A stretch of 64,000 bases of DNA. It comes from Thermosipho melanesiensis BI429 (GTDB lineage: Bacteria > Thermotogota > Thermotogae > Thermotogales > Fervidobacteriaceae). Position numbers and translations under genes: made by a program. The notes under the pieces were generated by a model. It did not search any database. It was not told the origin of the DNA and saw nothing but the letters and a program-made list of their open reading frames with translations. The stretch is taken from contig NC_009616.1 of NCBI RefSeq assembly GCF_000016905.1, positions 310,001-374,000 of the forward strand. Reading direction: 5' to 3'. Below, piece after piece: positions 50,035 to 61,717 of the stretch. The first letter of the stretch is position 1. Every line of letters begins with the position of its first letter.

Positions 50035-50533
50035 ATTTCAATTCCTCCAAGGTAAGGTAAAAACAAAAAGCACTCAAAACGAGCGCCATATTTCGCCGTT
50101 AATTTCAATTCCTCCAAGGTAAGGTAAAAACGCAGGAATGGCTAATTGAAACCTTACTGTTCCATCAATTTCAATTCCTCCAAGGTAAGGTAAAAACACG
50201 AAAGCAATTCAGAAACTAACACAAATAGAGGCATTTCAATTCCTCCAAGGTAAGGTAAAAACCAAAATAACAATGATGGTTTGTTTAATTGTTTTGTTTC
50301 TATTTCAATTCCTCCAAGGTAAGGTAAAAACCAATATTCTTCCCAGCAATCTTGACAAAGCGCAAATTCATTTCAATTCCTCCAAGGTAAGGTAAAAACT
50401 TTCAAGTCACTACTTGATGCGGATCCAATATATATTATTTCAATTCCTCCAAGGTAAGGTAAAAACATTCAGCTGAGAACAATAGATACACACACACCAA
50501 ATAATTTCAATTCCTCCAAGGTAAGGTAAAAAC
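50035..50533 (-). CRISPR. CRISPR array, 8 repeats and 7 spacers
   Basis: Eight apparently identical 30-base repeats start at 50035, 50102, 50168, 50233, 50302, 50370, 50437 and 50504. Spacers are 35-39 bases. On the minus strand each repeat starts GTTTTTACC and ends GGAATTGAAAT, giving the ATTGAAAT handle typical of type I-B. Transcription is therefore to the left, with the leader at 50534-50706 next to cas2 and the newest spacer at 50467-50503. Even the leader-distal repeat is unmutated. Confidence 0.97.
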
Positions 50534-50706: not shown

Positions 50707-50967
50707 CTAAATAAATTTTGTTTCTTCTTTTTTATCTTTTCCTAACACTTCTCTTTTACTGTAAAACATTTGTTTGAAAGTATATATCACTACTGAATCT
50801 TCATCTTTAATTATATTTTCCAACTCGATTTTTAATCTCTCCAAGTTAGAAATACTAATTTCACCTTCAAACACAGAATTTTGAACCCAAGTTAGATACT
50901 TCCTGCACGTTTTAAGCATTTTTGAAACTCTTTTTTTATTAACATCGTAATACAAAATTACAAACAT
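50707..50967 (-). CDS. cas2: CRISPR-associated Cas2
   Basis: Structural partner of Cas1 in spacer integration, 86 residues. It starts MFVILYYDVNKKRVSKM, with the first-strand Asp of the ferredoxin-like fold, and has WVQNSVFEGEI typical of Cas2. ATG at 50967 has GGAG 8 bases upstream; the longer GTG start overlaps that site. Last gene of the cas operon, beside the leader. Confidence 0.94.
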   Translation of the reverse strand: MFVILYYDVNKKRVSKMLKTCRKYLTWVQNSVFEGEISISNLERLKIELENIIKDEDSVVIYTFKQMFYSKREVLGKDKKEETKFI

Positions 50968-50969
50968 AT

Positions 50970-51965
50970 TCACCACTCCATAACTAGAGATGTATAAATC
51001 TCATCATCCAAAAAATGTTTTTCTAGTTTATAAAGTTCCATTCTTATTAATGTTCTATAACTTACCTTCTTACCTATTTTTTTCATTTTTACAGTTTCTT
51101 TAAGCTTATTTTCCAACATCTCAATAATCTTTTTCTTTCCATTATTATTCAAAAAAACTCTATTCAAACTTTTTTCAAAATCTTTTACACCAATAACTTC
51201 TTTATTAATTGCACTAAAAATTACCCTATCCCCTAATACTGGCTTAAATATTTCTGCAATATCCAAATTAAGTGAAAATCTTCTAAAATTGGTTGAGTGC
51301 AAAAATCCTATCCTTGGATCTAAGTGTGTTGAATATATTTCCCTTAAAACTATGCTATAAATTAAAGAATTTGAAAAACTAATTAAGGCGTTTATTCTAT
51401 CAATTGGTGGTCTCTTACTCCTTTTTAAAAAATTAAAATCTTCTGATTCAATAATATTATTAAAAGCATTATAATAAATCTTTTTTATTCTTCCTTCTAT
51501 TTGCATTAGCTTAGGAATATTACATACCAAATTTGTTTCCTTTAAACTTTCTTCTATCTCATGTATATGATTTATTAATTGCTTCCCCCTTCTATTATAG
51601 TATTTTAGAACTTTCAAACTATTTTTTACCGCTCCTTCAACAAATTTTTTAGCAATAAAAAGCCTTTTTTCTTTATCTATATAATGTTCTGCTTGTTTTA
51701 AAATCATAAATCCCGAATTATAATGTTCTCTTGGATAAAAACTTCCAACATAAAAACCATAATAATTGAAAAACGAAATCATAATTTCTTTCTTCGCAAC
51801 AAATTCAAGTAATCTTTTATTGCAATTAACCTCTCCAAATATATAAATTTCCTTTAAATTTTCAACAGGTATATGTTTTTTTACATTATCTTTTGTTAGG
51901 AATACCAAAGAATTGTCCTCTCTTTTTAAAGTTCCATCAGAAAATATATAAACAGTTTCTTTCAT
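50970..51965 (-). CDS. cas1: CRISPR-associated Cas1 integrase
   Basis: Metal-dependent integrase that inserts new spacers, 331 residues. The N-terminal beta domain (ETVYIFSDGTLKREDN, then EIYIFGEVNCNKRLLEFVAK) and helical C-terminal domain with Glu in MQIEGRIKKIYYNAF and the HSTNFRRFSLNLDIAEIFKP segment match type I-B Cas1. ATG at 51965 is chosen with GGAG upstream; it begins 5 bases after cas4 and stops 2 bases before cas2. Confidence 0.95.
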   Translation of the reverse strand: MKETVYIFSDGTLKREDNSLVFLTKDNVKKHIPVENLKEIYIFGEVNCNKRLLEFVAKKEIMISFFNYYGFYVGSFYPREHYNSGFMILKQAEHYIDKEKRLFIAKKFVEGAVKNSLKVLKYYNRRGKQLINHIHEIEESLKETNLVCNIPKLMQIEGRIKKIYYNAFNNIIESEDFNFLKRSKRPPIDRINALISFSNSLIYSIVLREIYSTHLDPRIGFLHSTNFRRFSLNLDIAEIFKPVLGDRVIFSAINKEVIGVKDFEKSLNRVFLNNNGKKKIIEMLENKLKETVKMKKIGKKVSYRTLIRMELYKLEKHFLDDEIYTSLVMEW

Positions 51966-51970
51966 AGTTA

Positions 51971-52447
51971 TCAACTCCAACAAAAATATTCAAAAGAACA
52001 AGTTGAACAATAGCTCTTCCTTTCTGGTTTTGGCATTTTTGGATTGTTTATTGTTTCTTCTAATTCATTAACTATAGTTAATAATTGTTTTTCATTATCA
52101 TCTGTCATTTCAACTTCTATTACCTTTTTTTCTTTTGGTATTCTTATCTCCCCGTAATAAACATTCAGTTTCCACATATAAAACAAAAGTTGAAATTTTG
52201 CGCTTTTAATCATCTTTGAAGATTTTTTTACTTCAACTAATTTCAAAAAACCCCTTTCTTTCTTCACTATATCAATTTTTCCACCATCGATAACTATTTC
52301 CTTCTTAGAATTTTTATACGACTCTTTTGAAATTAACCTTCCAATAACTATGAAATCATTATCTTGATCTCCTACTAATTGCCTTGAAAGAAGCCATGCT
52401 TGTCTTCTACATACAATATATGCTTGGATTAAACTTCCGGTTATCAT
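51971..52447 (-). CDS. cas4: CRISPR-associated Cas4 (RecB-like nuclease)
   Basis: Trims prespacers and checks PAM orientation. Of 158 residues, it has an N-terminal Cys13, nuclease motifs DGGKIDIV and LVEVKKSSKM, and C-terminal cysteines in YCSTCSFEYFC that complete a [4Fe-4S] site. ATG at 52447 overlaps the TGA of the cas3 C-terminal reading frame as ATGA, which ties its translation to that frame rather than to the shorter cas3. Confidence 0.94.
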   Translation of the reverse strand: MITGSLIQAYIVCRRQAWLLSRQLVGDQDNDFIVIGRLISKESYKNSKKEIVIDGGKIDIVKKERGFLKLVEVKKSSKMIKSAKFQLLFYMWKLNVYYGEIRIPKEKKVIEVEMTDDNEKQLLTIVNELEETINNPKMPKPERKSYCSTCSFEYFCWS

Positions 52448-52905
52448 ATAAAATCATACTCCCTTGAAGACTTTAACTTCAAAAATTTTTCAACGTTTAA
52501 TCCACAATCATAACTGTAATATTTTGAGTAATCTTCTGCGTAATAAAACTCTCCAAACATTTCATCTTTTAATATTTCTTTTATACCCTTTCCTTCAATT
52601 CGATAATTAAACAAAGAAACAACAAAATTTGAAAATATCTTTGAAAACAACCTATGTTCTACGTAATTAAAATCGTTATTTCTAAAGATATCCCATACCT
52701 TTTTTCCATCCAAAAATTCATCATCTTTATCAATTAATTTAAATTTAAATAATAGATTTTTCATGTTTTTTATTTTTTTCACTGGAATAGAAATTGGAAC
52801 AAACAAAGAAAAACTATATCCTTCTATTAGATTCATTTCATTATTTATTTTTTCAAATTCTAAATTTCTAAAATAGTCAAAATAATCTTTTGTATATTTA
52901 TTTAT
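52444..52905 (-). pseudogene. cas3: cas3 C-terminal domain, out of frame
   Basis: An open frame of 153 codons directly after the cas3 stop, without a start or ribosome-binding site at its beginning. It reads TKDYFDYFRNLEFEKIN, then EMNLIEGYSFSLFVPI, the kind of segment that follows the helicase in type I-B Cas3. The only ATG (52836) lacks a ribosome-binding site. The frame ends in ATGA coupling with cas4. Loss of one AAAT unit at about 52897-52912 would fuse it to the upstream cas3 for a product of about 800 residues. Confidence 0.75.
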
Positions 52906-54853
52906 TTATTTTCTTCTTTAAATTTTCAATAGTTAACATATAAAAATCTTTCAAAGTTAAAGAACCATTTTTGAATTTTGAGAAATTTTCCTCCAAAATC
53001 TTTTTTCTTACATCACTTCCATAAATCTTCTTCCACATCCCATCGTCAAACAAATACAACGTTGCTCTACTCAATCTTGCATTCCTATTAACCCTCCCCA
53101 TTGTTTGAATTATTGAATCAAGTATGGAAAATGCCCTAAATCCAACATCAAAATCCAAATCTACTCCTGCTTCAATTGATTGAGTAGAAACAAGAATTAA
53201 TGGCTTTTCTTTATCATATGACTTTATATAATCTATCAACTCTTTTTTTCTAATATCCAAAAGTGTAGAATTTAAAAGGTATATTTCTCCGTTAATCTTA
53301 TCTTCTAAATTTTCATAAATCTCGTAAGACTTTTTTACCGTATTTACCACTATCAAAACTTTTTTTGACTCATTTATCTCCTCTAAAACTTTTTCTTCAA
53401 AGGTGTGATTTTCTTTCAAAAATAATGTATTTACACGATTGAAAATTTTATGTTCTACAACATCTGGAGATAAATCTTCCACAAAACTTCCTTTATCCAC
53501 AAATTTAGTAAAATCCGGAAGTGTTGCACTCATAATAATTATTGTTGTATTTAGATATTTACTAAGATAATAAAACAGATTTGAAAGTGTATTCCAAAAC
53601 TTTGGATTGTACGCTTGTACTTCATCTAAAACAACTACACTGTTTGCCAATTGATAAAAATTAAAGTTATCTGATTTTCCGTTCCTAAAAAACATATCAA
53701 AAAATCCCACATGTGTAGAAAATACAAATGGAAAATTCAAAAAAAGCATTTGTGTAAATGTTTTTTCTTTATTTTCATCATCTGTTACATTCAAGTATTT
53801 GTGATCATATCTTGTAATATGTTCTTTGGGGATAAACTTTGAAAAATACTCAAAATTTTGCTCTATTATATTTATAAAAGGTATTACGTAAAAAACTTTC
53901 TTTTTATTTTCAAGCAATCTACTGATCAACCGAAGTGAAATGTTGGTTTTTCCTCCCCCGGTAGGGATTTCAATAAAAAAAACTTTCTTATTACTATTTT
54001 TAAACTTTTCCTCTACCCTTGCTGCCATAACACTTCTTAGTGTATTAATGTCAGAAATATTTTCTTTCTTCATTGCTTTCAACCTATCAAAATTTTCATC
54101 TATATATGGATTGAAATTTCCTTCAATATTTCTCGAAGATATATTTTCAAGTATTGCTTTCTTTAATGTCTTATCAATCGCATTTATACTGATTTCTACT
54201 CCTTTCATAAACTCTAAAGTCGCAAGATAATCAGAGGTTATAAGAAGGGAATTTATAAGTTTATAAAGTATATAAAATTCAATCTTTTTATATATTTTCA
54301 ATTGTTTTATCTTCTCAAAAACTTGCTTTGTTTTTTTTACTATTTCTCCTTTATCATTGATTGTTTCAATATTTTCTAGTATATCTTTTACAAACTTTTC
54401 CTTATTTTCATTCCATGTAATAACTTTATCGATATCAAATAAAACACTGTGGTGCCTCGAAACCACAGTGGAAAGAAAAAACAAAAACAAAAATTCATCT
54501 TTTTTTAAATTTTCGGATAATAATTTATCTGTTAAAAGTGTAGCTATTGTATAAAATCCCACATCACTATGCGTTACTTTGATTTTTCCTTTTATCAAAC
54601 CTTCTTGAAATTCATCTGTTAATTTTCCAATATCATGGTACTTTATTATCTCTTTTATCGTTTGAATGTGAGAAGAATCTATTCCAATTTCACTAAATAA
54701 ATTTCCCAATATCCTTTCTAAATCAAATTTATCGATTATACGTTCCAAATATTTTTCCGTTTTTTCTACATGTTCGTAAAAAGTTTCAAAATACATTCCA
54801 TTTTTATGCGCCATTTTGTTATCTATATTTTTAGAAAACATAAATAACTTCAT
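52898..54853 (-). CDS. cas3: CRISPR-associated Cas3 HD nuclease-helicase, truncated
   Basis: Effector that unwinds and shreds target DNA after Cascade binding. The HD nuclease motif is KYHDIGKL (His73-Asp74); the helicase has Walker A PTGGGKT near residue 300, the DExH-type motif VVLDEVQAY, STQSIEAGVDLDFDVGFR and QTMGRVNRNA. The frame stops after 651 residues inside an AAAT repeat, and the usual C-terminal domain lies in the next frame. ATG at 54853 follows GGAGG and overlaps cas5 by 23 bases. Nuclease and helicase cores are intact, so partial activity cannot be excluded. Confidence 0.93.
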   Translation of the reverse strand: MKLFMFSKNIDNKMAHKNGMYFETFYEHVEKTEKYLERIIDKFDLERILGNLFSEIGIDSSHIQTIKEIIKYHDIGKLTDEFQEGLIKGKIKVTHSDVGFYTIATLLTDKLLSENLKKDEFLFLFFLSTVVSRHHSVLFDIDKVITWNENKEKFVKDILENIETINDKGEIVKKTKQVFEKIKQLKIYKKIEFYILYKLINSLLITSDYLATLEFMKGVEISINAIDKTLKKAILENISSRNIEGNFNPYIDENFDRLKAMKKENISDINTLRSVMAARVEEKFKNSNKKVFFIEIPTGGGKTNISLRLISRLLENKKKVFYVIPFINIIEQNFEYFSKFIPKEHITRYDHKYLNVTDDENKEKTFTQMLFLNFPFVFSTHVGFFDMFFRNGKSDNFNFYQLANSVVVLDEVQAYNPKFWNTLSNLFYYLSKYLNTTIIIMSATLPDFTKFVDKGSFVEDLSPDVVEHKIFNRVNTLFLKENHTFEEKVLEEINESKKVLIVVNTVKKSYEIYENLEDKINGEIYLLNSTLLDIRKKELIDYIKSYDKEKPLILVSTQSIEAGVDLDFDVGFRAFSILDSIIQTMGRVNRNARLSRATLYLFDDGMWKKIYGSDVRKKILEENFSKFKNGSLTLKDFYMLTIENLKKKINK

Positions 54854-55592
54854 TATTTGTCCTCCAAAAATTTTCCTTTCTTTTTAACCTTAATTTTTTA
54901 TTTGTGAAAACAAATACATCTTTGAGATACAAATGATTTTCATTAAAATCGTATGGTAACTCTTCCAGTATAGATATGTAATCTGTTTCTTCTTCAAATA
55001 ATTCAATATCATCTAAATTTTCTTTAAAAAACTCAATATCTTTTAATCTTACAAGAGAGTTAACGGTTGATTCCTCAAATTCAAGCCTTTCAAGTTCAAT
55101 TGAACAATAATTTTCAAAATATGCTAAAAACTCGTTTTTCCCAAAATAAATAGGATATTCTGAATAATTCTTTTTTACCATTTTCTCTAATTTTTCATAT
55201 ACATTTTTTTCTTCATCAGTAAATGTCTCCAAACATGGTATAAATATTCTATATCCAATGCTTTCAACTATAACTTGTTCTTTGATTTGCAATACCCCAC
55301 CAGCTTCTCTTGAAGCATGGCCTGTTGAGTTATTAAATATAACAAGAGTTTTTTTCGGAGGTTTATTATACAAAGGTGTTATTGCTACCTTAAAATTTTT
55401 AAATTTCTCATAGTATTCCATAAAATTTCCACTTTTGTCTCTTTTGTATCCTTCTAATCCTAATATTGCTCCAAAAATACCGAAAAGATTTAATTTATGA
55501 ATAAAATTGTATGTGGCATATACAGTTGCATTTGTATCATTTTTTTTAAAAAAACCCATATCTCCTTTAAGCTCAAAAGAAAAGGCTTTCAT
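54831..55592 (-). CDS. cas5: CRISPR-associated Cas5, type I-B
   Basis: RAMP-fold Cascade subunit that caps the 5' handle of the crRNA, 253 residues. The N-terminus KAFSFELKGDMGFFKKNDTN and GIFGAILGLEGYKRD are the Cas5 family motifs. ATG at 55592 follows GAGGAGG. It begins 11 bases after cas7 and overlaps cas3. Confidence 0.92.
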   Translation of the reverse strand: MKAFSFELKGDMGFFKKNDTNATVYATYNFIHKLNLFGIFGAILGLEGYKRDKSGNFMEYYEKFKNFKVAITPLYNKPPKKTLVIFNNSTGHASREAGGVLQIKEQVIVESIGYRIFIPCLETFTDEEKNVYEKLEKMVKKNYSEYPIYFGKNEFLAYFENYCSIELERLEFEESTVNSLVRLKDIEFFKENLDDIELFEEETDYISILEELPYDFNENHLYLKDVFVFTNKKLRLKRKENFWRTNNEVIYVF

Positions 55593-55603
55593 ATTAGCCC
55601 TCC

Positions 55604-56527
55604 TCAAAGTAAAATATCACCCTTTTCCCAGTTATCTTTGATTCCTGCAACTTTACAAATTGAGTCGTTGTAGTATACTTCAACGTTTTCTATTTCATTC
55701 CCATAATTTTCAAGAAGATTAGATATCTTTGTAAGGTCTATAATTTCATCTTTATTTACATCAACTAAATTCTTCATAGTTGGAAGAACCAACTTTGAAT
55801 TTTCCTTAAGTGTAATAAATAAAAGTAAAGCATTTTCTGTTCCAATCTTCGATGTAGTATTTAAATTTGTTGCAAATTTTTTCAAAGCTTCTTTTAATTT
55901 TGATATATCATCATCAGTAAGTTCCATACCATCTGGCAAGTTTTTTGGATTTAAAACAAAATCATATACATAATAAGACTTTAGGTTCTTAATCTCATCC
56001 CCTAAGGTTGTTTGTTTGTCACCTTCTTTGTTTCTAAATGGTGAAGCTATATCAACAACAAATGGAATATTAACATTGTATCTATTTATCCCATAACTTA
56101 TTTGAAAAGGACCTGTTATTGACATTTGACTTTCACCTACTGCAAAGGTTATTCCAAATAATTTTACATCAATAAATTTGTTAAAAAAGTCGTATCTGTC
56201 AATATTTTTTATTTCTTCCTCTTTTCCATTTTTATTTTTCTTCTTTTGAATAATCCATTTTATTTCATCTTTTAATACTTCTTGCCAATATTTATCAGTT
56301 TCATCAAGAGATCTTGGTTTACCATCTTCTTTAAACGTTCTCCAAACAAATACCTTCTCTCCTGAATCTAAGAAAAATTTCCTTATAGCATATTTTGCAG
56401 ACTTATCCGTTGCAAATATGGTTGCATTTTCATCGGGAAGTCTTCTTGGATATTTCGTAAAATCGGCATTCCAATTACTATTTTCACTTTTCAAAACAAC
56501 TATACCATAACATCTTTTTGTAAACAT
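55604..56527 (-). CDS. cas7: CRISPR-associated Cas7 (Csh2 type)
   Basis: Backbone subunit of the Cascade complex, 307 residues, several copies of which coat the crRNA. The opening YGIVVLKSENSNWNADF and RRLPDENATIFATD and the glycine-containing AVGESQMSITGPFQISYG match Csh2-type Cas7 proteins. ATG at 56527 follows GGGAGGG. Lies between cas8b and cas5 in the expected order. Confidence 0.93.
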   Translation of the reverse strand: MFTKRCYGIVVLKSENSNWNADFTKYPRRLPDENATIFATDKSAKYAIRKFFLDSGEKVFVWRTFKEDGKPRSLDETDKYWQEVLKDEIKWIIQKKKNKNGKEEEIKNIDRYDFFNKFIDVKLFGITFAVGESQMSITGPFQISYGINRYNVNIPFVVDIASPFRNKEGDKQTTLGDEIKNLKSYYVYDFVLNPKNLPDGMELTDDDISKLKEALKKFATNLNTTSKIGTENALLLFITLKENSKLVLPTMKNLVDVNKDEIIDLTKISNLLENYGNEIENVEVYYNDSICKVAGIKDNWEKGDILL

Positions 56528-56541
56528 CTATATCCCTCCCG

Positions 56542-58242
56542 CTATAATTTTCTTGATGAAAAATACCCTTCAAAGAAATAAAACTTATCATTTTTAGATA
56601 CTTTCTCAGGTAATTTTCCGGAATTAAAATAATTCAAAATTAAACCAAAAATCTTATCAAATTTTTCATTATAGAAATTTATAGCGTGCTTGTACTTGGT
56701 AAATAGTTCGTAAATTCTTTCAAGCATGACTTTTGAACTATTTACATTGATAAAAGGTTCAACCAAAGCATGGGTTTTATTAGAAATTTTTGATTGTGAT
56801 AGAAGAAATCTTGTAAGCTTTCCAAGTAGATAATAGTACTGATAACTATCTTCGATTTTTTCTAAGTCTTCCGTTTCTACCTTTTCCGTTTTTTCCATAA
56901 AATCACCCCCAAAGATTTTATTTAGCTTTTTATAACTTTCAAATGCCTTTTCAATTTTCTTTAAAAAATTTTTTTCCTCAGAATATAGCCCCTTTAAATA
57001 ACAAACTAAGGAATCGTAAAAGATATTATCAATTGTTTCTTTGCTTAATGAGTCATATCTTGCTCTATAAATAAAATCAAAAATATTCTCCCTGTATTTA
57101 TATATGTTTTTTGCCAATAAGTTATTTTTAATTGTTATTGAACCAAAATAATTTTTCACTAAAAAGTTATCAAACATCTTATCTAAATAATTTTCTATTT
57201 CAAAAATATTTGTTTCGTTGTAATAATACCTAAAGTTTGATACATAATCGACATATACAAAATCATCTTTGTAAATTATTAGGTAAAAATCGAGAATTAA
57301 ATCATTTACATCAACCTCCTTAAATACTTGCTCTAAAATCTCTCGAAATGACAGTTTTTCACCGCTACTTTTCAAAAACTTTATTTCCAATTCCCTGAGT
57401 TTTTTCTTAGATAGTAATGGAAATATTGAAAATTTTTTTAAAAATTTTTCTAAAAAAGTTGTAAGTTCAAAGGCACAATCTTTACAAATCATTATGTTGT
57501 ATTCTGTTTTTCTTCCTAAATGCTTTAAAAACGGCTTTTTCACGTTTAAAGTATGAAAAACCCCGGGTATTGAAATAATATCTTTTTTACCACATATTGG
57601 ACATATTCCATATTCTTTGACATTTTCAACAGCAAATACTTTTTCTTTTAAATATTTTTGATGAAAATCTTTATAGAGTTCTTTATTTTCTAATTCAAAT
57701 ACAAAGTAGATATTTTTGTAAATTTCTTCGTATTCTTTATTAAAAACCTTTAGTGACATATCATTTACCTTTTCATATAAAAACTTTGCTTCGTCTCCTT
57801 TGAAGATCAACTTTTCCAACAAATCTTCTTTAACTCTATTTTTAAAGGATTTTAATGTTTCACTATTATAAACTAACATTATTTTTTTAGTAAAATCACC
57901 ATTTTTAGGTTTGGGCCCTTGGAATATAAATAAGTTGTATGAATTTGTCCCTTTATTTCCCTTTATACTCTTATTACCTTTCTCATCTCCGGGAAGTTTT
58001 GCCGTCAAAACTTTTACATTTTTCAAAATTTCCCTCAAATCATCATTAACATCATCTATCTTTCTCGCGTTTTCTAATAAATTTACTTTATCGTAATATT
58101 TTTCATCTAATACAAAGTAAAACTTTTTTTTATCTTCTGGAGGGATAATTACATAAACTAAATCCTGTGCTTTTTCCTCAAGTAAATCATAAAATCTGGA
58201 ATCTCTTAGTTCTTTTGAAAACTCTATCATTTGGTTTATCAT
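56542..58242 (-). CDS. cas8b: CRISPR-associated Cas8b (Csh1 family)
   Basis: Large Cascade subunit, thought to read the PAM. Of 566 residues, it carries a central zinc-ribbon: CPICGKK and, about 40 residues later, CKDCAFEL. This feature and its position beside cas7 define Csh1/Cas8b. The rest is weakly conserved in this family. ATG at 58242 follows GGGGGTG; it starts 11 bases after cas6. Confidence 0.9.
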   Translation of the reverse strand: MINQMIEFSKELRDSRFYDLLEEKAQDLVYVIIPPEDKKKFYFVLDEKYYDKVNLLENARKIDDVNDDLREILKNVKVLTAKLPGDEKGNKSIKGNKGTNSYNLFIFQGPKPKNGDFTKKIMLVYNSETLKSFKNRVKEDLLEKLIFKGDEAKFLYEKVNDMSLKVFNKEYEEIYKNIYFVFELENKELYKDFHQKYLKEKVFAVENVKEYGICPICGKKDIISIPGVFHTLNVKKPFLKHLGRKTEYNIMICKDCAFELTTFLEKFLKKFSIFPLLSKKKLRELEIKFLKSSGEKLSFREILEQVFKEVDVNDLILDFYLIIYKDDFVYVDYVSNFRYYYNETNIFEIENYLDKMFDNFLVKNYFGSITIKNNLLAKNIYKYRENIFDFIYRARYDSLSKETIDNIFYDSLVCYLKGLYSEEKNFLKKIEKAFESYKKLNKIFGGDFMEKTEKVETEDLEKIEDSYQYYYLLGKLTRFLLSQSKISNKTHALVEPFINVNSSKVMLERIYELFTKYKHAINFYNEKFDKIFGLILNYFNSGKLPEKVSKNDKFYFFEGYFSSRKL

Positions 58243-58253
58243 GCTTTCACCCC

Positions 58254-58982
58254 CTATTCAATAAAACCAAACCCTTGTGAATTTTTACTACCAAGTCCTG
58301 CATCATATGCAAATGCTAGAACAGATGGTTCACCTTTCAAAAGAAACTTACCCTTCCAACCTTCGACTACATATTTTTTATCCCCAAATCCATAATAAAC
58401 TACACTTTTGTTCATATTTCCAAGTGATATTATTTCAATATCTCTGTCCAAGTTCTCTTTGTAAAAAGCTTCCCACTTACTTTTTAAATTTAAATTTATT
58501 AGTTTTGAAAATTCTCTTTCAAATGGTGCAAAATACTTCGTCTTATTTCTTCCATTTTCTTTATAAGTCTGGTGAACTTCTATAGGAGTTAAAGCATTCA
58601 CTTTCAAAATATCCTTTGCAATCTCCTTATAAACAACTTCTACAGAAGATAAATAGATATCATTTTCTCCAAGAAAATATTTATCCCCATTTAAAAGATT
58701 CAAAACCAAATTTTCCATTAACTTTGTTACAGGAGATGAAATATAAAAACTTATATTCTTTCCAAAATTAAAAACTTTCATTCTCTTAAAATACTGCCCT
58801 TTTTCTAAAATAGAAGAAAAACAAAAAAGCGAAAATTTTCTTTTGCTTCTAAATCCTTCTTCATGAACAAAACGTCTCAAACTATTGCTAAATAGGTTGT
58901 ATATCAACGCTTGAATATATTTGTTAAAACCTACTGGCAAAATTATATCTTCGATTGAAATAAATCCCACTTTAATTCTCAT
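58254..58982 (-). CDS. cas6: CRISPR-associated Cas6 endoribonuclease
   Basis: Cuts the repeat RNA to release crRNAs, 242 residues of double RAMP fold. The C-terminal glycine-rich loop GLGSKNSQGFGFIE is diagnostic. ATG at 58982 follows CGGAGGGG. It is the first gene of the eight-gene cas operon, with an extended -10 promoter about 60 bases upstream. Confidence 0.93.
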   Translation of the reverse strand: MRIKVGFISIEDIILPVGFNKYIQALIYNLFSNSLRRFVHEEGFRSKRKFSLFCFSSILEKGQYFKRMKVFNFGKNISFYISSPVTKLMENLVLNLLNGDKYFLGENDIYLSSVEVVYKEIAKDILKVNALTPIEVHQTYKENGRNKTKYFAPFEREFSKLINLNLKSKWEAFYKENLDRDIEIISLGNMNKSVVYYGFGDKKYVVEGWKGKFLLKGEPSVLAFAYDAGLGSKNSQGFGFIE

Positions 58983-61104: not shown

Positions 61105-61180
61105 TCCGGCGTAGCTCAATAGGCAGAGCGGGTGGCTGTTAACCACTAGGTTGGGGGTTCGAGTCCCTCCGCCGGAGCCA
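61105..61180 (+). tRNA. tRNA-Asn (anticodon GTT)
   Basis: 76 nt with encoded CCA. Acceptor TCCGGCG pairs with CGCCGGA, the anticodon loop is CTGTTAA and the T loop TTCGAGT. Confidence 0.96.
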
Positions 61181-61226: not shown

Positions 61227-61287
61227 TATTATCATTAATAATATTCTAACTCTCAAAGAAGAAATTAAATTTTTAACCTTTCTTCTT

Positions 61288-61650
61288 CTATATTCGTATA
61301 TCCTTTTGCATTTGAAGTATATATCTTTGTTTTCTTCTTTAAGTTATCTTTATCTTTTCGTTTCATTGCTCGGTAATACGTACTCTTTGAAATACCTGAT
61401 ATCTTACACAGTAATTCTAAACTAAATCTTTCTTTCAATTCATTTATTACTTCAATTTTTTTACTATTTCCTTCCTCTTCAGCTCGTAATCTTTCCATCT
61501 CTTCTTCAAAAGATTCTTTCTTTGGTTTACCTCTTTTACATTCTGCTTCACCATACAAAAGATAATTCTTAATCCAAAGACGAACTCTATCTGGCGAAAT
61601 ACCCAAAAGAGAACCAATAGTTTTCTTAGAAAGATTTTCTTCAATGAAAA
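61288..61650 (-). pseudogene. Remnant of a second IS150-type element
   Basis: Minus-strand similarity to the IS at 20.9-22.2 kb: the orfA part KKTIGSLLGISPDRVRLWIK through RGKPKKESFEEEMERLRAE, then a deletion of about 36 bases that removes the end of orfA, then the orfB start ERFSLELLCKISGISKSTYY. Both IS ends, the orfA start and most of orfB are missing. The small open frame spanning it is an accident of the deletion. Confidence 0.85.
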
Positions 61651-61717
61651 AATTGAAAAATATGTTCATTTGATATAATATCATTGGAAGAATACAGTTA
61701 AAAAAATAAAATACATA

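Follow-up and report, generated by a model that had tools for sequence, protein, structure and literature searches.

A four-nucleotide insertion at a short AAAT repeat splits the only recognisable cas3 of Thermosipho melanesiensis, probably a recent loss of function rather than a working switch

Background

Type I-B Cas3 proteins (Cas3b) combine an HD nuclease domain, an SF2 helicase and a C-terminal domain, and a review notes that it is not clear what exactly the C-terminal accessory domain does (PMC7074321). In 9 of 16 Salmonella genomes cas3 was found as a pseudogene, together with cse1, beside otherwise intact cas genes (PMC2886076), and for E. coli strains whose Cas3 is shortened at the C-terminus it was suggested that the protein may be functional, a suggestion left untested there (PMC6301781). 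For the genus Thermosipho, a comparative study published in 2018 stated, after manual inspection of the cas genes, that cas3 is present in some members and “disrupted in T. melanesiensis, T. africanus Ob7” (PMC6211235). For T. melanesiensis this sentence names the species and not the strains, and the main text of that study attaches no position, repeat or mechanism to it. The strains of T. melanesiensis, whose average nucleotide identity to one another is at least 99.98%, were treated there as closely related clones, and two of them, BI429 (454/Sanger) and 431 (PacBio/MiSeq), were kept for analysis (PMC6211235).

Tandem tetranucleotide repeats are the basis of contingency loci such as the methyltransferase genes modM and modN, which are phase variable in Moraxella; the on-off tracts described for these genes are located near the 5′ end, and that of ModM comprises 18–35 units (PMC7302503). 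The number of units at which a tract is regarded as a candidate varies between surveys, with tetranucleotide tracts of > 2 units being counted in one (PMC7302503), a rule that the four AAAT units discussed here pass, and a threshold of ≥ 5 units being applied in another (PMC5953494), below which they fall. An exact-phrase literature search returned no paper on phase-variable CRISPR or cas3, and no slippage-controlled cas gene was seen in a broader search judged mostly by titles and abstract openings.

Here, we analyzed a 64,000-nucleotide stretch of the T. melanesiensis BI429 genome (G000:C1:310001-374000, hereafter the window; positions without a contig label are counted within it) that carries a CRISPR-cas operon; the species lives at hot vents in the deep sea. 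An earlier note on this DNA had proposed that its cas3 is split by a run of AAAT units acting as a possible on/off switch for CRISPR interference. The locus resembles modM-type contingency loci in that a tandem repeat is placed in a defence-related ORF and the number of units sets the frame, and it differs from them in having four units instead of many (18–35), in their position late in the gene, and in their being unique in the genome. With the degraded cas3 genes of Salmonella and E. coli it shares a broken or truncated cas3 among mostly intact cas neighbours, whereas those cases also involve a cse1 that is truncated or a pseudogene (PMC2886076, PMC6301781); here a short repeat has gained 4 nt, and cas3 is the only cas gene seen to be broken.

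Results

The type I-B operon and other CRISPR loci

Eight cas genes are arranged on the minus strand in the order cas6-cas8b-cas7-cas5-cas3-cas4-cas1-cas2, followed by a CRISPR array (Table 1). Based on the profile matches for Cas8b, Cas7b, Cas5, and Cas1b, the operon is assigned to type I-B. Every cas gene other than cas3 aligned over at least 97% of its length to one frame of the congener G003, and cas3 contained the only frame break seen among the eight.

Table 1 Features of the cas operon and the adjoining array in the window (cas3 given as two parts)
Feature	Position	Strand	Description
cas6	58254..58982	minus	unbroken
cas8b	56542..58242	minus	unbroken; Cas8b profile PDLC01507 (2.5e-74)
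cas7b	55604..56527	minus	unbroken; Cas7b profile PDLC01614 (1.7e-34)
cas5b	54831..55607	minus	unbroken; Cas5 profile PDLC01432 (2.8e-26)
cas3, 5′ part	52898..54853	minus	651 codons + TAA; HD nuclease and helicase core; terminates within the AAAT tract
Conserved inverted repeat (RNA hairpin) in cas3	54445..54470	minus	spans the codons for TVV-x-RHHS in the HD domain; T-rich stretch behind it
AAAT × 4 tract	52896..52911	minus	net +4 nt relative to intact homologues
cas3, 3′ part (+1 frame)	52444..52905	minus	153 open codons + TGA; Cas3 C-terminal domain; no visible start site of its own
cas4	51971..52447	minus	ATGA overlap of its start with the stop of the cas3 3′ part
cas1	50970..51983	minus	unbroken; type I-B profile, Cas1b over cut-off
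cas2	50707..50976	minus	unbroken
CRISPR array	50035..50533	minus	8 identical 30-nt repeats, 7 spacers

Two arrays were found in the genome here; five are given in PMC6211235. The second one is located at G000:C1:137986-138552 (L049:15987-16553), where no cas gene was recognised by eye among the ORFs of its 20-kb stretch, and two positions distinguish its repeats from those of the window array (GTTTCTACC...GAAAC for the second array, GTTTTTACC...GAAAT for the window array). The 15 spacers of both arrays had no second match at ≤ 7 mismatches in the window and in two further stretches of the same genome. When compared with phages, the window array gave four weak matches (E 0.01), i.e., two Pseudomonas phages each present under two accessions, with 7% of the query covered, and these were taken as chance.

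A second cas1 and a second cas6 occur elsewhere in the genome. A type III-A csm operon lies within G000:C1:1655000-1674999 (L097:3-10001); Csx1 and a SAVED-domain protein are encoded upstream of it and a cas6 downstream, and it ends with an RNase-HI-like ORF. Within the window, a short ORF (61265-61684, minus strand) had a partial match to an IS3-type transposase below the family cut-off and is probably a remnant; it is adjoined by a tRNA gene (61105-61177).

Two frames of one cas3 gene

Direct reading of the sequence bore out the earlier note on the structure of the break. The cas3 frame stops inside four AAAT units, which lie one base off the position first given (approximately 52897-52912), and its TAA occupies 52900-52898 on the minus strand. 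The perfect period-4 tract measures 17 nt (52895-52911, 4.25 units) and begins at codon 648 of about 800, roughly 80% into the gene. From 52905 to 52447 the next frame is open, as had been described, and it closes with a TGA (52446-52444) that forms the ATGA overlap with the ATG of cas4 (52447). The lack of a ribosome-binding site for this second frame was likewise noted before, and no Shine-Dalgarno-like sequence was visible, as judged by eye, upstream of its first ATG (52836). Removal of one unit fuses the frames through KKINKYTKDYFDYF, the junction having been predicted correctly. Among 2896 wrong-frame stretches of 153 codons taken from seven cas frames of the operon (cas6, cas8b, cas7, cas5, the long cas3 piece, cas4, and cas1, with cas2 left out), none was open; because of this count and the Cas3b profile match of the C-terminal piece reported below, the open frame represents more than chance.

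The 5′ part exceeded the NCBIfam cut-offs for the helicase core (TIGR01587, 153.6 bits, cut-off 102.45) and for the HD nuclease domain (TIGR01596, 69.2 bits, cut-off 43.45), and its helicase motif VI is found at residue 583. Along the PADLOC Cas3b profile PDLC01758 (797 positions), the N-terminal piece matched positions 6-665 and the C-terminal piece positions 675-792, leaving 666-674 unmatched between them, so that the two pieces jointly cover positions 6-792. The second piece had no NCBIfam match at 0.001 and no Pfam match at 0.1, and it was identified as a Cas3 C-terminal domain by this profile and by alignments with the C-termini of relatives. Structure prediction for the read-through protein was uninformative (mean pLDDT 44.3, three sequences). 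Among the features of a type I-B Cas3, the HD domain, the helicase core with motif VI and the neighbouring cas8b, cas7, and cas5 are all present, while the C-terminal domain is encoded in a different frame and not in the same polypeptide, unlike in 27 of the 29 loci examined.

A profile search of the genome retrieved one Cas3 over the family cut-off, namely the split gene. Five further matches to the Cas3 core remained below the cut-off, the best of them being Mfd. A second intact cas3 was looked for and none scored above the family cut-off, at which a very divergent cas3 could escape.

Comparison with homologous loci

Intact, single-frame Cas3 proteins are encoded by G003, a member of the same genus (801 residues), and by the outgroup G016 (805 residues), whose printed sequence is identical to that of Thermosipho sp. 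GB_MAG9_058. On both of them the two T. melanesiensis pieces abut with a gap-free junction, overlapping solely in the residues INK that are encoded by the repeat. Identity to the G003 protein was 71% for the N-terminal and 67% for the C-terminal piece, the latter being 63% and 57% identical to the cas3 C-termini of G002 and G016, respectively. At the site of the break G003 reads AGAAGGTTAAATGCATTTACA and has no AAAT repeat, and the repeat is absent there in G002 too. A net 4-nt insertion therefore puts the C-terminal domain (about 150 residues) out of frame with the 651-residue HD nuclease-helicase part, and since the net excess over the relatives is +4 nt, the difference is most simply explained by a single surplus AAAT unit compared with the ancestral frame.

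A wider search gave matches in 29 of 45 genomes of the order. In the first 29 loci of this order-wide search, 27 keep 187–239 residues in frame after helicase motif VI, a number that includes the query gene of the search, one frame of 402 residues and two frames (L078 and L079, 919 and 910 residues) that may be other helicases; the corresponding figure for T. melanesiensis cas3 is 61. The remaining locus is the N-terminal piece of the G002 cas3, which is broken earlier and lacks motif VI, its second piece (L080) having been left out of the count. Homologues ending near residue 651 and accompanied by a separate small protein, which would have spoken against a broken gene, were hence not what we found, and a Cas3 split by design across the family was rejected because the C-terminal domain is in frame in 27 of the 29 loci. 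A search of genome contigs yielded two named relatives, and a search of viral contigs yielded two distant matches only.

In the type I-B operon of G002 (L006, G002:C8:3000-20000), cas7 and cas3 each lack 1 nt that is present in G003, and cas1 lacks 263 nt, a pattern that points to operon decay or draft errors. This operon was not accepted as further, independent evidence of a switch, given that its cas3 is broken by a 1-nt deletion elsewhere in the gene and that cas7 and cas1 are damaged as well.

Constraint on the C-terminal piece and rarity of the repeat

In the C-terminal domain, identity to the outgroup G016 was 56.4% for T. melanesiensis, 53.7% for G003 and 57.0% for G002, and identity to the more distant G020 was 38.9% for T. 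melanesiensis, slightly below the 40.5% of G003. Pairwise comparison of the C-terminal piece with G003 gave dN 0.204 and dS 1.237, the N-terminal part being compared by amino-acid identities only. Signs of a decaying pseudogene were not found, i.e., the C-terminal piece is not clearly accelerated and has no stops, and the other cas genes are unbroken. As no clearly faster decay of the C-terminal part is apparent, the break looks recent, but these values would fit either a recent break or a C-terminal domain that is still used.

Four tandem AAAT units occur once in the T. melanesiensis genome (1,915,238 bp, single contig) and nowhere in the three congeners G001, G002, and G003. Three units occur at seven other places in T. 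melanesiensis, the corresponding counts for G001, G002, and G003 being 5, 9, and 7. The reversed-letter control gave 3, 0, 4, and 0 for the four genomes in the same order. Dinucleotide shuffles led to an expectation of 0.01 four-unit tracts per 64 kb, which scales to approximately 0.3 per genome, and a single one per genome is consequently not remarkable. The tract seems to be a near-chance short repeat that slipped and not a member of a set; the real signal is the frame-breaking insertion relative to the homologues, and not the occurrence of the tract.

A conserved hairpin within cas3

A terminator scan found four candidates against 2.0 expected in shuffles, and the stem-loop flagged at 54470-54445 falls within cas3. 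Its palindrome (ACTGTGGT...ACCACAGT) is shared by four of the five cas3 homologues examined (T. melanesiensis, G002, G003, and G016, not G020), with folding energies between -13.9 and -18.7 kcal/mol in the four carriers and shuffle z-scores of -3.5 to -5.7 (three sequences folded). Among 2000 synonymous recodings, 3, 0, 0, and 0 were as stable in the four carriers and 1705 in G020, the test covering a single spot, the one picked by the terminator scan. Two stem pairs change on both sides; pair shuffles matched this in 64 of 500 cases, and covariation alone is therefore weak. The hairpin occurs once, in cas3, in three of the four genomes searched, and does not occur in G001, where no relative of this cas3 was found. 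The T-rich stretch that follows it is weaker in G016. The hairpin might serve as an operator, or it might attenuate transcription of the adaptation genes and of the part of cas3 that lies beyond it.

Discussion

The disruption of cas3 in T. melanesiensis was already known. The published lesion (PMC6211235) is almost certainly the one described here, because the species is the same and its genome has only one Cas3 over the cut-off, and what had been reported as “disrupted” without an explanation is now tied to a precise lesion.

We consider it probable that the only recognisable cas3 has suffered a frameshift mutation here, and that this represents a recent loss of function rather than a working switch. 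A replication slip would have taken a chance three-unit AAAT tract to four units, after which the ribosome would stop behind residue 651 and release a Cas3 that keeps its nuclease and helicase motors and lacks the C-terminal domain. The latter, encoded in a frame with no visible start, would not be made, or hardly so, and type I-B interference would likely be lost or strongly weakened. The absence of a second visible break in the operon and the undecayed state of the orphaned domain suggest that the event was recent and became fixed in the sampled clone. Some points weigh on the other side: the truncated Cas3 retains its catalytic domains, a Cas3 shortened at the C-terminus may be functional in E. 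coli strains (PMC6301781), and the undecayed C-terminal piece fits continued use as well as it fits recency.

Phase variation, in which the tract would gain and lose units at an appreciable rate and thereby toggle full-length Cas3 and type I-B interference, appears improbable to us. Such a role is favoured by the perfect tetranucleotide repeat, as repeats of this class are known to slip, by the joining of the two frames that the loss of one unit would bring about, by the intact C-terminal frame, and by both the > 2-unit candidate rule and the precedent of modM and modN (PMC7302503). However, its 4.25 units stay under the 5-unit threshold of PMC5953494, it is unique in the genome and missing at this site in G003 and G002, it lies about 80% into the gene, whereas the tracts described for Moraxella are close to the 5′ end (PMC7302503), and the statement on the cas3 of this species in PMC6211235 speaks of disruption and makes no mention of variation. 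The on/off switch put forward in the earlier note is unsupported on these grounds. We also attach little probability to a slow reversible switch, with most cells carrying four units and rare three-unit revertants regaining full-length Cas3 and taking over under phage attack. A working Cas3 made from two pieces or by frameshifting is similarly doubtful. Active protein would then come from a +1 shift at AAA-TAA or from the C-terminal domain being translated separately, and this is in line with a C-terminal frame that is free of clearly relaxed constraint and still coupled to cas4 by the ATGA overlap. Against this, the site is not conserved, with G003 and G016 having one frame and a different sequence there, a ribosome-binding site is not seen upstream of the first ATG in the C-terminal frame, and no other split at the same point was seen among the 29 loci examined.

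The chance is slight that the break is a sequencing or assembly error and that the true chromosome has three units and an intact cas3. A lone frameshift within a repeat is where an error would sit, and the unbroken state of the other cas genes and the seemingly normal constraint on the C-terminal piece would be expected from it. An error of a whole 4-nt unit is, on the other hand, unlike the typical homopolymer error of 454 sequencing. BI429 was indeed sequenced by 454/Sanger (PMC6211235, Table 1), but the same study, which included strain 431 (PacBio/MiSeq) and a manual inspection of the cas genes, called the T. melanesiensis cas3 disrupted, albeit without naming the strains in that place. 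This inspection, the identity of at least 99.98% between strains, and the use of different technologies for the two strains (PMC6211235) make it likely that the lesion is fixed and unlikely that it stems from a sequencing error.

The expectation that interference would be off and adaptation intact is upheld only in part. The genes cas1, cas2, and cas4 are unbroken. Primed adaptation in type I systems needs Cas3, however, so adaptation would not be fully intact.

Conclusions

A lone short repeat with an open frame behind it does not amount to evidence for a switch, although a variable tract would make this locus a direct case of CRISPR interference controlled by slippage. The lesion suggests that the type I-B locus of T. 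melanesiensis is able to make guides and to acquire spacers without possessing a complete DNA-cutting enzyme, and with a type III-A locus and a second cas1 located elsewhere in the genome, the loss of type I-B interference may be tolerable.
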